From NCBI RefSeq assembly GCF_017352155.2, contig NZ_CP071462.1, positions 2,728,001 to 2,792,000 on the forward strand: 64,000 nucleotides of DNA, written 5' to 3'. Position numbers and translations under genes: made by a program. Each line of letters starts with the position of its first letter. Within the stretch, counting starts at the first letter, position 1. This DNA is from Haloterrigena alkaliphila (GTDB lineage Archaea; Halobacteriota; Halobacteria; Halobacteriales; Natrialbaceae). The notes beneath the pieces are model-generated. The model ran no database searches. It worked only from the letters and a program-made list of their open reading frames with translations, and was not told the origin of the DNA. Positions 36,490 to 57,034 of this stretch are shown piece after piece.

Positions 36490-37533
36490 ATGACTATGTC
36501 GTCCGCACCCGCCGCGACCGGGGCCGCGTCGGTCGTCGGCAGCGAACTCGCCGGCGCAACGACCCTCCTACCGGGGATGGCCGCGGTCGCCGGGATCGAT
36601 CCGTCGGACCTGCTGGCGTGGGTCGCCATCGGCGCGTTCCTCGCGGCGTTGCTCCTCGCATATCAGGGATACCTCGAGGCAGCGCGCTATCTCGGAACGG
36701 GTGCCTGGATCACCTTCGGTCTCTTCTGGCTGACGATGGTGCCGTACTACTACGGCGAGGCCCAGAGCCCCCTCAAAACGGTGCTGGGACTGCTCGCGTT
36801 GCCCCTGTGTCTCTACACCGGCTACCTCCTCTGGGAGGGGCGCGACTCGCTGCTGGTCCTCACGAAGGCCGTCGCCTGTATGGGCCTGATCTACCTCCCG
36901 GTCGAGACGATGCCGTTCGTCAAGACGTGGCTGATCGAGACGACGGCGGCCCAGACGCACTTCGGGATGGAACTGCTCGGCTACAGCCCCGGCCTCGAGG
37001 TCGGGAGCAACGGCTACCAGAGCAAGTTCGCCTTCGATCCCCAGGAGACGGTGACCGGGCGGACGACCTACATCGTCCTCGCCTGTACCGGCATCGGGAG
37101 CATGGCCATCTTCGGGGGTCTGGTCGCTGCCGTGAAGGCCCCGCTGAAGCGCAAGGTCACCGCCTTCGGCCTGGCGGTCGGGGTCATCTGGTTCCTCAAC
37201 CTCGTGCGCAACGTCTTCATCGGCCTCGCGTCGCCGTGGGGCTGGTTCCAGCAGGACTGGCTCGTCTCGTTCATGACCACCTACATGGGCGCCGAGGCCA
37301 ACCGCGTCTCCTACCTCGTCGCGCACAACTACATCGCCCAGACGCTCTCGATCGTCGCGCTGATCGGGATCACCTACCTCGTCGTCAGGATCCTCCCCGA
37401 GGTGCTCGTCCCGCTCGAGGAGGCCCTGTTCGTCGTCACCGGCAACGAGTACGACCTCTTCGAGGCGCTGGGGGCGGAGGAGATGCAAGCGCGGGCCGAC
37501 GGCGGCCCGGACGCCGCGGACCGCGACCGATAA
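36490..37533 (+). CDS. artA: Archaeosortase A
   Basis: Membrane transpeptidase that cuts surface proteins at a C-terminal PGF-CTERM signal and links them to an archaeal lipid anchor. The 347-residue protein has about eight hydrophobic helices. The active site is visible: Cys199 in VLACTGIGSM, Arg240 in LNLVRNVFIGL and His279 in YLVAHNYIAQ, the Cys-Arg-His order known for the exosortase/archaeosortase family (41 and 39 residues apart). Start ATG at 36490 or 36496. A protein with a PGF-CTERM signal is encoded at 56183. A metallophosphoesterase gene follows after four bases. Confidence 0.92.
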   Translation: MTMSSAPAATGAASVVGSELAGATTLLPGMAAVAGIDPSDLLAWVAIGAFLAALLLAYQGYLEAARYLGTGAWITFGLFWLTMVPYYYGEAQSPLKTVLGLLALPLCLYTGYLLWEGRDSLLVLTKAVACMGLIYLPVETMPFVKTWLIETTAAQTHFGMELLGYSPGLEVGSNGYQSKFAFDPQETVTGRTTYIVLACTGIGSMAIFGGLVAAVKAPLKRKVTAFGLAVGVIWFLNLVRNVFIGLASPWGWFQQDWLVSFMTTYMGAEANRVSYLVAHNYIAQTLSIVALIGITYLVVRILPEVLVPLEEALFVVTGNEYDLFEALGAEEMQARADGGPDAADRDR

Positions 37534-52681: not shown

Positions 52682-52795
52682 TGGACCCCGATTCGAGCCG
52701 GGTGCGGTAAAACGTAACGGGACGGACTCGTCTCGGTGGCACCCGGATAGTGTATCACCACACTAAATTTGTATTCACAGCAACTCATTGCGACT

Positions 52796-53041
52796 ATGAG
52801 CACCGATCGGGTCGACGCCGAAAGCAAAGTCTCCGGCAATCAGGCGAACATCCCCACACGAATCCGTCGACGCCTCGATATCGACGACGGGGATCGCCTC
52901 CAGTGGAGCGTCGAAGACGACCGTTCGGTACGGGTCGAGGTCGTTCACCGCAGCAGCGGTTCGTTCGCCGATTTCACGGGTTACGACGGGGAGGACGAGA
53001 CTGACTCAGCGACGAACCACGACGCGTGGGGAGTGGAGTGA
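52796..53041 (+). CDS. AbrB/MazE/SpoVT-type DNA-binding protein (antitoxin-like)
   Basis: An 81-residue protein whose first half is a swapped-hairpin AbrB domain: AESKVSGNQANIPTRIRRRL then DIDDGDRLQWSVEDDRSVRV. The rest is acidic. Haloarchaeal AbrB proteins of this size are often antitoxins in front of a PIN toxin, but no PIN-like ORF follows; only a 16-codon frame starts at the stop. The ATG at 52796 fits the TTTGTA box at about 52769. It is divergent from gatB. Confidence 0.8.
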   Translation: MSTDRVDAESKVSGNQANIPTRIRRRLDIDDGDRLQWSVEDDRSVRVEVVHRSSGSFADFTGYDGEDETDSATNHDAWGVE

Positions 53042-53294: not shown

Positions 53295-54524
53295 TCAGGG
53301 ATCGCCGTCATCCACCAGATCGATCACGTTCTCACGACCGATACGGAGCTTTTCAACTGTTCCCTCGTCCGCCATCCCGGAAACGACCCGCGATGTCTTC
53401 GATGCCGACCACTCGAGTTCGTCGACGATATCGGCTTGGCGCATGCGGCCGTCGTTCCGCTCGAGGAGTCGACGGACGCGGTTTTCGTCGGTGAGGAGAT
53501 CCGAGTCGAGAGCAGCGTCGGCGCCCGAAGCGGTCGCATCGGACGGTTTGGCGATCGCGGCTGATCGCGGCGGTTCGTCGGTGCTCGTGTCGGAATCGGT
53601 GTTGACGGCAGTCGACTCGGCGTCGTCCGATTCGGTCGCCGTCTCGAGCGAGTCCGGAATCGACAGCCGCGAGCCGATCGTCGAAAACGGTTCGCGATCC
53701 GAGGCGACGACGAGCGTGAGTCCGACGAGCGCGAGCATGAAGACGAACGTCATCCCGAGCAGCGTCGGGGAGAGGGAAAGCCACCGATCCGAGTCGCTCG
53801 CGCTCGCGGCCATCGATTCCGAGCTGGCGGGTTCGAAACTCGCCGTCGGCCGCTGATCGGTGAAATCGTTCGGCCCGGTCCAGACGACCGTCGTGCCGTT
53901 GGTCTCGTCGGGTTGCGGCGTCGTCGCCGTCGGCGTGTAGCCGTCGGGCCCGACGATTTCGAGGTAATCGTCCGCATCGAGATAGAGGCCGCCTTCGAAG
54001 ACGTCGCCGACGACGACCGCTTCGTCTTCGGTTGCGGTGAAGTTCGTCCAAGTGAACGAGTACGTGACGGTTCCCCACCGCCGCGGTACCTCCTGAATCG
54101 ACGTTTCGGCGCGGAACGACGACGCGGCCATCGTCCGGCCGGTCGACTCGGACGCGCTCGAGACGACGCCGGTCATGCGGCGTTCGAACCGATCGGCGTA
54201 CTCCTCGCGGTCGGCGCGGAACCGCTCTTGGAAGGCCTCGTAGTCGTCGACGTCCGACTCGTTCGTGAGCCGGGTCTGGATCGTCGCCGACCAGCGGGCG
54301 GTGCCGTTCGCCGCCACGTCGATCCGGGTGACCGTCGTGTCGACCTCGGGTCCCACCGACGGAAGGAGCGGCGATCGATCGTCGCCGTTCGTCTCGCCCG
54401 ACTGGGCGAGCGCCGCAGACGATCCGGCGGGGACGAACGCGATCAGACACAGCATGGTGAGGACCACGGTCACTGTACGATCGGATACGATACTCACGCT
54501 ATCCGAGGTTTTGAGAGGGGGCAT
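53295..54524 (-). CDS. Membrane-anchored winged-helix regulator with extracellular sensor domain
   Basis: A 409-residue one-component regulator. A signal/anchor stretch occupies residues 17-38 (TVTVVLTMLCLIAFVPAGSS), an extracellular beta-rich domain about 45-225, a single TM helix near 253-275 (TLLGMTFVFMLALVGLTLVV), a disordered acidic linker with Ser/Thr/Asp, and a winged helix in the last 70 residues (NRVRRLLERNDGRMRQADIV; DELEWSASKTSRVVSGMADE). This matches haloarchaeal HTH proteins of the DUF7345/DUF7343 kind, but the signal is unknown. The outside domain is paralogous to the protein encoded at 56183. It is divergent from the two envelope genes, and the operator repeats lie between them. 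Confidence 0.83.
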   Translation of the reverse strand: MPPLKTSDSVSIVSDRTVTVVLTMLCLIAFVPAGSSAALAQSGETNGDDRSPLLPSVGPEVDTTVTRIDVAANGTARWSATIQTRLTNESDVDDYEAFQERFRADREEYADRFERRMTGVVSSASESTGRTMAASSFRAETSIQEVPRRWGTVTYSFTWTNFTATEDEAVVVGDVFEGGLYLDADDYLEIVGPDGYTPTATTPQPDETNGTTVVWTGPNDFTDQRPTASFEPASSESMAASASDSDRWLSLSPTLLGMTFVFMLALVGLTLVVASDREPFSTIGSRLSIPDSLETATESDDAESTAVNTDSDTSTDEPPRSAAIAKPSDATASGADAALDSDLLTDENRVRRLLERNDGRMRQADIVDELEWSASKTSRVVSGMADEGTVEKLRIGRENVIDLVDDGDP

Positions 54525-54543
54525 GTAAGTTTTCTGTCCCACA

Positions 54544-54613
54544 GTTGCAACTCGCTGCAAACCGCTGCAAACGACGGTACGAATTACTCACACGGCGTGC
54601 AAACCGCTGCAAA
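54544..54613. promoter_or_regulatory. Five GCTGCAAA-like boxes phased at 10 bp in a divergent promoter
   Basis: Three boxes (GTTGCAAC at 54544, GCTGCAAA at 54554 and 54564) are spaced exactly 10 bp, then after 32 bp a second pair (CGTGCAAA at 54596, GCTGCAAA at 54606) is again spaced 10 bp. Ten base pairs is one helical turn, so the copies face one side of the DNA, as expected of a cooperative operator. The first group overlaps the likely promoter of the membrane regulator gene (start 54524). The second lies upstream of the TTTATG box at 54635-54640 that serves the gene at 54669. Confidence 0.75.
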
Positions 54614-54668
54614 TCGGTCCGATAATCGCGCCGATTTATGGGGTCCCCGTTCCGAGACGTGACCGACG

Positions 54669-56186
54669 ATGAACCGACGACTACTGACCGTCTCGATGGT
54701 CGTGGTGCTCTGCACCGCGCTGTTCGGCCCGGCGGCCGCCGCCGGGGCGGCGAACCAGCCCGAGACGGCGATCCAGGACGAATCGACCGAGAACGACGTT
54801 ACCGTTACGACCGGCGCACAGCTGTCGACGATTGTCACGGCGACGAGCGACGAGGTCCGCACCGAGTTCGAAAACACGGCGTTCGACGAACGCATGGCAG
54901 ACAACGCCAGCGATCGCGCGGCCGCGATCGCGGAGCGTGCGGCCGCACTCGAGAATCGCTCGACGACGCTGCGGGCGGAGTACGAGAACGCGACGGCCGC
55001 CTACGAGGTCGGCGACCTCGAGAAGTCTGCGTACGCACAGCGGCTCGCGTCACTCTCCGCGCGGGCCGAGAACGTCGTCTCGAGCTACGAACGACTCGAG
55101 GAGCGCGTCGAATCGGTCGATGAGATCGACCGCCGCGCCGCCGGCGTGACGCCGTCGGAACTCGCCGACCAGCGAGCGGCGGTGGCCGACCTCACGAGTT
55201 CGGGGGCCGATGCGCTGTTCCAGCAGTTCACCGGTGAGACCAACGGCAACGCCGAGATCGAGGTCGACGGCGGCGTGTCGATCGAGGTCGAGACCGACGA
55301 CGGCGAACGGACCCGCGAGTACGAGCGACCGCGCGACGGAGACGGATCACTGGCTATCTCACAGACGGACGCGCTCGACGCGGCCACCGACGTGCTCTCG
55401 CCGGTCGAAGACGGCAACTGGACGGTCACCGAAGCCGAGACGGACGACGGCGTCTACGAGTTTGAGTTCGTCCTAGCGGGCGCTGAAACCGGCGAGACCG
55501 GCGAGGCCGAGGTCAGCGTCGACGGCGAAACGGGGACCGTCTTCGAACTCGAGGAGGAGATCGAGCGGCGAGATGCGGCTGACGACGAGGACGAAGCGGA
55601 CGAAAAAGAAGACGAGGACGAACGACTCGTCGTTCTCGTCGCGTCCGGCTCCCCGGATCCGGGCGAGCAGGTGACGCTCAAACTCCTCGCGAACGGACAG
55701 CCAGCAGCTGACGCAGCGGTCACAGTCAACGATCGGGCCGTCGGCACGACGAACGACGACGGCGAACTCACCGTCACCCTTCCGGTCGAGGAGGCCGAGA
55801 TCGAAGCCGAACACGGAGATGCCGAGGGCGAACTCGAGTTCGAGTTCGATGACGGGTCTGGCGACGAGGACGCCGAATCGCAGTTCAACGCCGACGCGAC
55901 CATCGACAATGGTACCGTCACCGTCTCGGCGACGTTCGACGAGAGCCCGGTCGCAGGTGCGACCGTCGTCGCGAACGACGAGACGGTCGGGACGACGGGC
56001 GAGGACGGCACAGTGTCGTTCGCTCTCGACGACGATACTGACGAACTCGAGATCGAGGTACTCCGTGGCGAACTCGAGTCCGAACTCGAGTTCGAACTCG
56101 AAAGTGACGAGGAGGATGAAGACGAAGAAGAGGATGAAGAGGACGAAGAAGACGAAGATGAAGAGGACGACGAAACTGATCAATGA
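54669..56186 (+). CDS. Secreted multidomain protein with PepSY-like region and two beta-sandwich repeats
   Basis: A 505-residue protein with a Sec-type signal peptide (MNRRLLTVSMVVVLCTALFG then PAAAAGAA). Residues 45-165 are helical with coiled-coil character (AAAIAERAAALENRSTTLRA). Residues 235-300 resemble a PepSY-type domain (LAISQTDALDAATDVLSPVE, then DGVYEFEFVLAG). Two similar beta-sandwich modules follow: EQVTLKLLANGQPAADAAVT and NGTVTVSATFDESPVAGATV. The last 35 residues are almost only Asp and Glu, encoded with AT-rich GAT/GAA codons. The protein is probably at the cell surface. Its TGA overlaps the next ATG (ATGA), so the pair is co-translated. Confidence 0.8.
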   Translation: MNRRLLTVSMVVVLCTALFGPAAAAGAANQPETAIQDESTENDVTVTTGAQLSTIVTATSDEVRTEFENTAFDERMADNASDRAAAIAERAAALENRSTTLRAEYENATAAYEVGDLEKSAYAQRLASLSARAENVVSSYERLEERVESVDEIDRRAAGVTPSELADQRAAVADLTSSGADALFQQFTGETNGNAEIEVDGGVSIEVETDDGERTREYERPRDGDGSLAISQTDALDAATDVLSPVEDGNWTVTEAETDDGVYEFEFVLAGAETGETGEAEVSVDGETGTVFELEEEIERRDAADDEDEADEKEDEDERLVVLVASGSPDPGEQVTLKLLANGQPAADAAVTVNDRAVGTTNDDGELTVTLPVEEAEIEAEHGDAEGELEFEFDDGSGDEDAESQFNADATIDNGTVTVSATFDESPVAGATVVANDETVGTTGEDGTVSFALDDDTDELEIEVLRGELESELEFELESDEEDEDEEEDEEDEEDEDEEDDETDQ

Positions 56187-56935
56187 GTCGTGGAACTGAC
56201 CGGGACCGACTACTACCGAACGGAACGTGTCGAGCAGGACTCCTGACAGTTATCCTCGTCGGGCTGCTCCTGACGGGAACCGCCACCGCGTCCCTCGACG
56301 GCGTGCACAGCACCGATCGCTCGCAGGAAATCGACACCGACTCAGCGTTCGAGGTCGCTCTCGATTCGGACGGCGACGCGACGGTGACCGTCCACGTCAC
56401 GTTCGACCTGAGCGACGAGGCGGATCGGGCTGCCTTCGAATCGCTTGAAGCGAACGAGACGAAACGGAGTCAACTCGAAACCCGCACTGAACGGCGATTG
56501 CAGGCGGTCGCGACGAGCGCGGCCAACGAGACCGGTCGCGAGATGGCCATCGAGGACACGCGCACGTCCTTCGAAACGGACGGAGAGACCGATCGCGGTA
56601 TCGTTTCCGTCTCAGCGACCTGGACCGAATTCGCGGCCACCGACGACGATCGACTGACTGTCACCGAACCGTTCGCCAGCGGCTTCACGTCGGACCGGCC
56701 CGTCGTGATGGCTCTCCCCGAGGGCTACTCGCTCTCGGCGTCCACGCCGGAGCCGAGCGAGCGAACGGACGGACGCATCGTCTGGGACGCGAACACGTCG
56801 CTCGAAGGATACGAGACGGTCGTTACTCCGGCGGACGAAACGACGGGAGAGAAGACTGACGGACAACCCGGATTCAGCCTCGGGGCAGCAGTTGCGGCGA
56901 TCGCCGGGGGCGCCTGGCTGTGCCGCCGCCGGTAA
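56183..56935 (+). CDS. Surface protein with DUF7345-like domain and PGF-CTERM anchor
   Basis: A 250-residue protein with a signal peptide (GLLTVILVGLLLTGTATAS), a domain of about 140 residues and a C-terminal sorting signal: QPGFSLGAAVAAIAGG, hydrophobic stretch and WLCRRR. This is the PGF-CTERM form processed by archaeosortase A. The central domain is paralogous to the outside domain of the regulator at 53295, with blocks such as NETGREMAIEDTRTSF and VSVSATWTEFAATDDD against STGRTMAASSFRAET and VTYSFTWTNFTATEDE there. It overlaps the preceding gene by ATGA. Function unknown. Confidence 0.82.
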   Translation: MSRGTDRDRLLPNGTCRAGLLTVILVGLLLTGTATASLDGVHSTDRSQEIDTDSAFEVALDSDGDATVTVHVTFDLSDEADRAAFESLEANETKRSQLETRTERRLQAVATSAANETGREMAIEDTRTSFETDGETDRGIVSVSATWTEFAATDDDRLTVTEPFASGFTSDRPVVMALPEGYSLSASTPEPSERTDGRIVWDANTSLEGYETVVTPADETTGEKTDGQPGFSLGAAVAAIAGGAWLCRRR

Positions 56936-57034
56936 GCGCAGCGACGCACGGCTCCGGTTGACGCCGGTTCTCGGGAACCGATCGGATCCACTCGGACTCG
57001 ATCACGACGCTGCCGGCCGACCAACCGACACGAG

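Follow-up and report, generated by a model that had tools for sequence, protein, structure and literature searches.

The divergent locus and its three proteins

The window, by which we mean the whole stretch of 64,000 nt that was analysed, is taken from Haloterrigena alkaliphila (GCF_017352155.2, NZ_CP071462.1 positions 2,728,001 to 2,792,000, forward strand) and carries at 53295-56935 a trio of genes in which a regulator on the minus strand is divergent from a middle and a surface gene on the plus strand, the promoter region being common to both directions. A first-pass annotation had described three genes with a shared promoter, and re-reading of the sequence bears out this layout, together with two details: the acidic tail of the middle protein and, at 56183, the ATGA by which its gene overlaps the surface gene. 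Past the 3′ end of the regulator, at window positions 52769-53041 (+), there is a small AbrB/MazE-like DNA-binding protein, the match being sub-threshold.

The regulator (53295..54497, minus strand) has the order DUF7345, transmembrane helix, DUF7343, as established from Pfam and hydropathy, with its start taken from the orthologue alignment. A signal-like N-terminus precedes the outside domain DUF7345 (53937..54326, −; aa 67-196; Pfam 1.8e-30, 106.2 bits against a cut-off of 27.5), which is followed by the transmembrane helix (53706..53762, −; aa 255-273; hydropathy 2.56), a long linker rich in Asp, Ser and Thr, and the C-terminal cytoplasmic winged helix DUF7343 (53316..53498, −; Pfam 1.3e-29, 102.3 bits against a cut-off of 27.6), whose recognition-helix region reads WSASKTSRVVS. 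A DNA-binding domain and at least one transmembrane region are thus found in one protein, the combination that marks a transmembrane transcription regulator of the one-component kind, and among related regulators a transmembrane helix comes after DUF7345 in 56 of 57. The three parts that had been proposed for this protein, outside domain, membrane helix and winged helix, all stand, but its proposed start at 54524 is probably to be moved: GTG 54497 is the more likely start codon, because in the promoter alignment ATG 54524 sits at the regulator TATA box of the orthologues.

The surface gene (56183..56935, +) encodes a free-standing DUF7345 with a signal peptide and a PGF-CTERM-like tail. Its domain (aa 57-189; Pfam 2.3e-25, 89.7 bits against a cut-off of 27.5) lies, as does that of the regulator, above the family cut-off, in agreement with the paralogy of the two outside domains claimed at the outset; indeed, a search of the genome with the regulator as query retrieves the surface protein (1.5e-14, 30% identity). 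In the structural model of the surface protein, DUF7345 is built from two helices and a set of strands, with pLDDT of ~93-97 across most of the domain, and a structural likeness to the regulator domain would follow from the common family membership. A PDB sequence search returned nothing usable and no solved structure matches convincingly; the Foldseek matches of the model to FMO-protein (TM 0.24, rmsd ~15 Å), and the weak ones to LppM and PA4063, were rejected as functional evidence. Members of DUF7345 weakly match DUF4897 (30/33, alignment A1) and are sporadically similar to the N-terminal domain of DUF2207, a likeness that may point to a single, wider superfamily of such outside domains.

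The sorting tail of the surface protein (56855..56932, +) has the expected succession of PGF, hydrophobic segment and arginines, but its profile score is 17.2 bits against a cut-off of 24.5. The PGF motif is retained in most relatives of the protein, and two of the eight tested exceed the cut-off (37.6 and 29.5). Archaeosortase A (ArtA), placed by the first-pass annotation at 36490, is indeed encoded there, outside the locus (36490..37533, +; TIGR04125, 341.8 bits), and is presumed to be the anchoring enzyme. The surface gene region is also where the window comes closest to a locus of another genus (L076): DNA identity is ~87-97% over window positions 55900-56950 and ~50-83% over the rest, and the corresponding distances are 0.04 for the surface domain and 0.30 for the regulators. 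The surface gene looks as if it had recently been exchanged between genera; as the surface genes are near-identical and the regulators 30% apart, there need be no tight co-adaptation between the two.

The middle gene (54669..56186, +) encodes a secreted protein in which Pfam, the structural model and the orthologues together distinguish a DUF7096-like helical bundle, a PepSY-like unit, two Ig-like domains and an acidic tail. DUF7096 is sub-threshold in the protein of the window (19.4 against a cut-off of 27), and exceeds the cut-off in the orthologue L083 (33.4) and in a paralogue (200.8); since this orthologue passes, we regard the middle protein as a divergent DUF7096 relative. The PepSY-like region noted earlier fares less evenly, as the PepSY profile is not detected in the protein of the window and reaches 23.9 against a cut-off of 24 in an orthologue, but the modelled fold of aa 232-299, a helix and four strands, fits the proposal. 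The model as a whole comprises the helical bundle, with coiled-coil, the PepSY-like unit, both Ig-like domains and a disordered acidic tail, and a Foldseek search with it gave generic Ig- and Fn3-type matches only.

Distribution of the family and gene company

DUF7345 occurs in all sampled genomes of the class (292/292, from 77/77 genera) and is sparse in the rest of the phylum; Haloferax volcanii, a tractable haloarchaeon, also encodes it. The genome under study encodes five DUF7345 regulators and one free-standing copy: at a second locus a clear DUF7096-DUF7094-Fn3 protein is encoded divergently from the regulator, and at a third a DUF7096-like gene comes after the regulator. Divergent pairing with a DUF7096-DUF7094-type protein was found in 8/8 loci of that type examined, distributed over five families, from which we conclude that a regulator beside a secreted DUF7096-type protein is an old pairing. 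The trio of the window is then one version of it, to which a free sensor domain has been added. Some neighbourhoods depart from this arrangement or extend it. In L113 (1548-6962; same genome, G000:C1 ~833-838 kb) the divergent neighbour of a paralogous regulator is a DUF7096-DUF7094-Fn3_arc protein, and after the regulator comes a subtilase (S8) that carries CarboxypepD_reg domains and, at its C-terminus, a hydrophobic segment; L112 and L131 carry a third regulator type, with WSKSKVS in the recognition-helix region and without a DUF7096-type partner beside it; and a genome outside the class (G365; loci L120 and L121) has five DUF7345 copies, one of them free-standing beside a subtilase-like frame.

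Within the family the trio is found in two layouts, divergent and same-strand. We have analysed 39 further loci that encode a free-standing DUF7345; most come from other families, and they include the L177 copy, which is labelled as a regulator by its best profile but was counted as free-standing because its frame has only 242 aa. A middle-type gene is adjacent in 38/39 and a full regulator stands beside the pair in 28/39, which corroborates the co-conservation of the three genes that had been set beforehand as a check; in the remaining 11/39 no regulator adjoins the middle-surface pair. In a tree of 91 DUF7345 domains, obtained by a quick method, with many weak inner branches and with L119 and L120 falling outside the clade, the 31 haloarchaeal free-standing trio copies form one clade (SH-aLRT 100), which splits into divergent and same-strand types and in so doing mirrors the regulators. 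Regulator and surface distances are likewise correlated (0.86 over 30 loci, reached by 0/2000 permutations), a value that could arise from common descent alone.

These data bear on whether the domain common to both proteins carries any meaning. It may be incidental, the surface protein having a structural or binding role of its own and being linked to the regulator by gene order only; we consider this a serious possibility, if a tentative one, given that the surface gene seems exchangeable between genera without the regulator and that some middle-surface pairs lack a neighbouring regulator. However, the free copies make up a single clade divided in the same way as the regulators, and the surface gene is near-constantly accompanied by the middle gene. 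The finding is in any case wider than first read: regulators and DUF7096-type proteins are paired throughout the class, and some loci have the free sensor domain in addition.

Phased repeats in the trio promoters

The shared promoter contains direct repeats of the unit YGCAAAYCGC, spaced by exactly 10 bp, which form two clusters. The first candidate operator cluster (54546..54575, +), unique in the genome, has three direct units at a 10-bp period and lies beside the regulator promoter; the second (54598..54617, +) has two, at the same period, and ends 17 bp before the TATA-like box TTTATG of the middle-surface operon (54635..54640, +), a box that is CGGTTTATG-like in 11 aligned promoters. The 4.27-Mb genome has two copies of TGCAAANNNNYGCAAA, both of them in the shared promoter, and none of its reversed form, which served as a control. 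In 11 orthologous promoters there are 25 copies of TGCAAA in a single orientation, where mononucleotide shuffles predict 0.49, and none in the opposite orientation. YGCAAANNNNYGCAAA has 14 matches in 18 relatives, 12 of which lie inside the trio promoter, and has no match in three congeners without the trio. Taken together, these repeats are a candidate operator that fits binding by the regulator. In one genome (G060; L086 and L176) the middle and surface genes are found at 4.67 Mb with the repeats retained, and the regulator is located at 0.27 Mb, where it adjoins a short piece of the middle gene.

A second operator type is evidenced by the same-strand loci. In 19 of these, the paralogue of the same genome included, the region upstream of the middle gene can be aligned without gaps, and the autocorrelation, judged against permuted columns, has a z of 4.8 for a lag of 10 bp and of 5.7 for one of 20 bp. 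These loci have units of the GTTGAACCG kind, which stop ~17 bp short of the TATA box, as in the window; the GTTGAACCG-type array of the paralogue is unique in that genome, and related units such as CTTAATCCGG are present in loci from other families. The recognition-helix region reads WSASKTS in the divergent type and WTDAKTS in the same-strand type. We have extended the analysis to 36 promoters, nearly all from a later, separate set, by scanning lags from 5 to 15, with 84 other promoters from these loci as controls. A lag of 10 bp is the strongest in 30/36 promoters and in 7/84 controls, the former not being a count of independent events as some of the loci are close relatives, and z exceeds 2.5 in 27/36 and 1/84, respectively. 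Promoters of the regulator subtype that is paired with full DUF7096-DUF7094 proteins contain no 10-bp array.

Proposed transmembrane control and comparison with known regulators

We propose, with a probability of roughly 60%, that the transmembrane one-component regulator controls, and most likely activates, the operon of its secreted partners as well as itself, the whole being a self-contained signalling module. Judged by its sequence, the regulator would expose DUF7345 on the outside and hold DUF7343 inside, at the end of a flexible linker that follows a single membrane helix. Several DUF7343 winged helices would bind side by side on the 10-bp direct repeats, all on one face of the DNA, a line-up of subunits that would suit a membrane-held protein. 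From a site just upstream of BRE/TATA the regulator would most likely activate the middle-surface operon, and it would also control its own gene. We infer the sign of this control from the position of the candidate site, since archaeal activators act upstream of BRE/TATA, and repressors usually overlap these elements or sit downstream of them (PMC6085418). Outside the cell, the DUF7096-like protein would serve as a secreted partner; the free DUF7345, presumably anchored by the sortase, could be a co-receptor or feedback partner of the outside domain of the regulator. The first interpretation is partly supported, by the co-conservation, the homology of the two domains and the candidate site in the shared promoter; competition between the surface protein and the regulator for a ligand, or the sharing of one, may be one form of such outside feedback, and a control of envelope state is conceivable.

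The opposite sign, with the phased repeats serving to repress both the operon and the regulator's own gene until an outside signal makes the regulator let go, appears unlikely: a divergent shared promoter with a cluster near the regulator's own TATA box is common in autorepressed systems, but in either operator type the units stop ~17 bp upstream of TATA, unlike the sites of the usual archaeal repressors (PMC6085418). Somewhat more improbable still is regulated proteolysis, by which the regulator would be cut in or beside its membrane helix on receiving a signal and the freed winged helix would act in the cytoplasm. The single membrane helix, and the length and flexibility of the Asp/Ser/Thr-rich linker that leads to the winged helix, would be compatible with such a cut; however, neither a cleavage motif nor a linked membrane protease was seen, and sites that are private to the locus fit a tethered factor at least as well. 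That the phased repeats are the site of another factor, the regulator acting elsewhere, is very improbable, for although the link between repeats and regulator is drawn from sequence, the repeats are private to the locus, absent from three congeners lacking the module, and change type when the recognition helix of the regulator next to them changes.

Looking beyond this locus, we offer more tentatively the view that membrane-tethered regulators throughout the class read private operators phased at 10 bp and are tuned by a sortase-anchored, free copy of their own sensor domain and a secreted DUF7096-type partner, in a feedback circuit that closes across the membrane and has no described precedent. 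In the literature searched we found no papers on the function or gene pairing of DUF7345, DUF7343, DUF7096, DUF7094, PF24036 and PF24034, and no published description of a system of this layout, in keeping with what had been stated initially. DUF7345 is present in all sampled genomes of the class, yet no function for it was found in that literature; the pairing of regulator, operator and target is concrete and testable, and the family should reveal how these archaea sense the cell surface.

The SptA promoter was considered as a possible target link, and none was found in the excerpted text of PMC6085418; CsmR (PMC13286277) was set aside, being a 13-kDa protein for which no membrane part is described. 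Among archaeal proteins, ArnR and ArnR1 of Sulfolobus are membrane-bound one-component transcription factors that control surface structures (PMC6396743), and resemble the trio regulator in being of this kind. However, in ArnR the HTH is N-terminal and is accompanied by a HAMP-like region and two transmembrane helices at the C-terminus, so that the order of domains and the number of membrane helices differ from those of the trio regulator, and a co-encoded sensor copy such as the trio possesses is not described in PMC6396743.

The trio would work most like the bacterial co-component transmembrane regulators, which have associated partner proteins (PMC10269533), without being a member of that group. 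As in ToxR/ToxS, TcpP/TcpH and VtrA/VtrC, a single-pass membrane factor holds a winged helix inside and a sensor outside, and the partner, which in the trio is presumably extracytoplasmic, acts outside the cytoplasm; the partners of the trio are co-encoded and conserved, and may act on the outside domain as in ToxR-like systems. The domains are unrelated, however, and the partners differ, being a free sensor-domain copy and a DUF7096-type protein. ToxR-like regulators have an N-terminal cytoplasmic winged helix of the OmpR type and a C-terminal outside domain, an order that is reversed in the trio regulator. The ToxR site is itself a direct repeat with a 10-bp period, TNAAA-N5-TNAAA (PMC8517210), and the comparison suggests that a ToxR-like logic of membrane-tethered winged helices and 10-bp-spaced repeats arose again in archaea, with the opposite topology.
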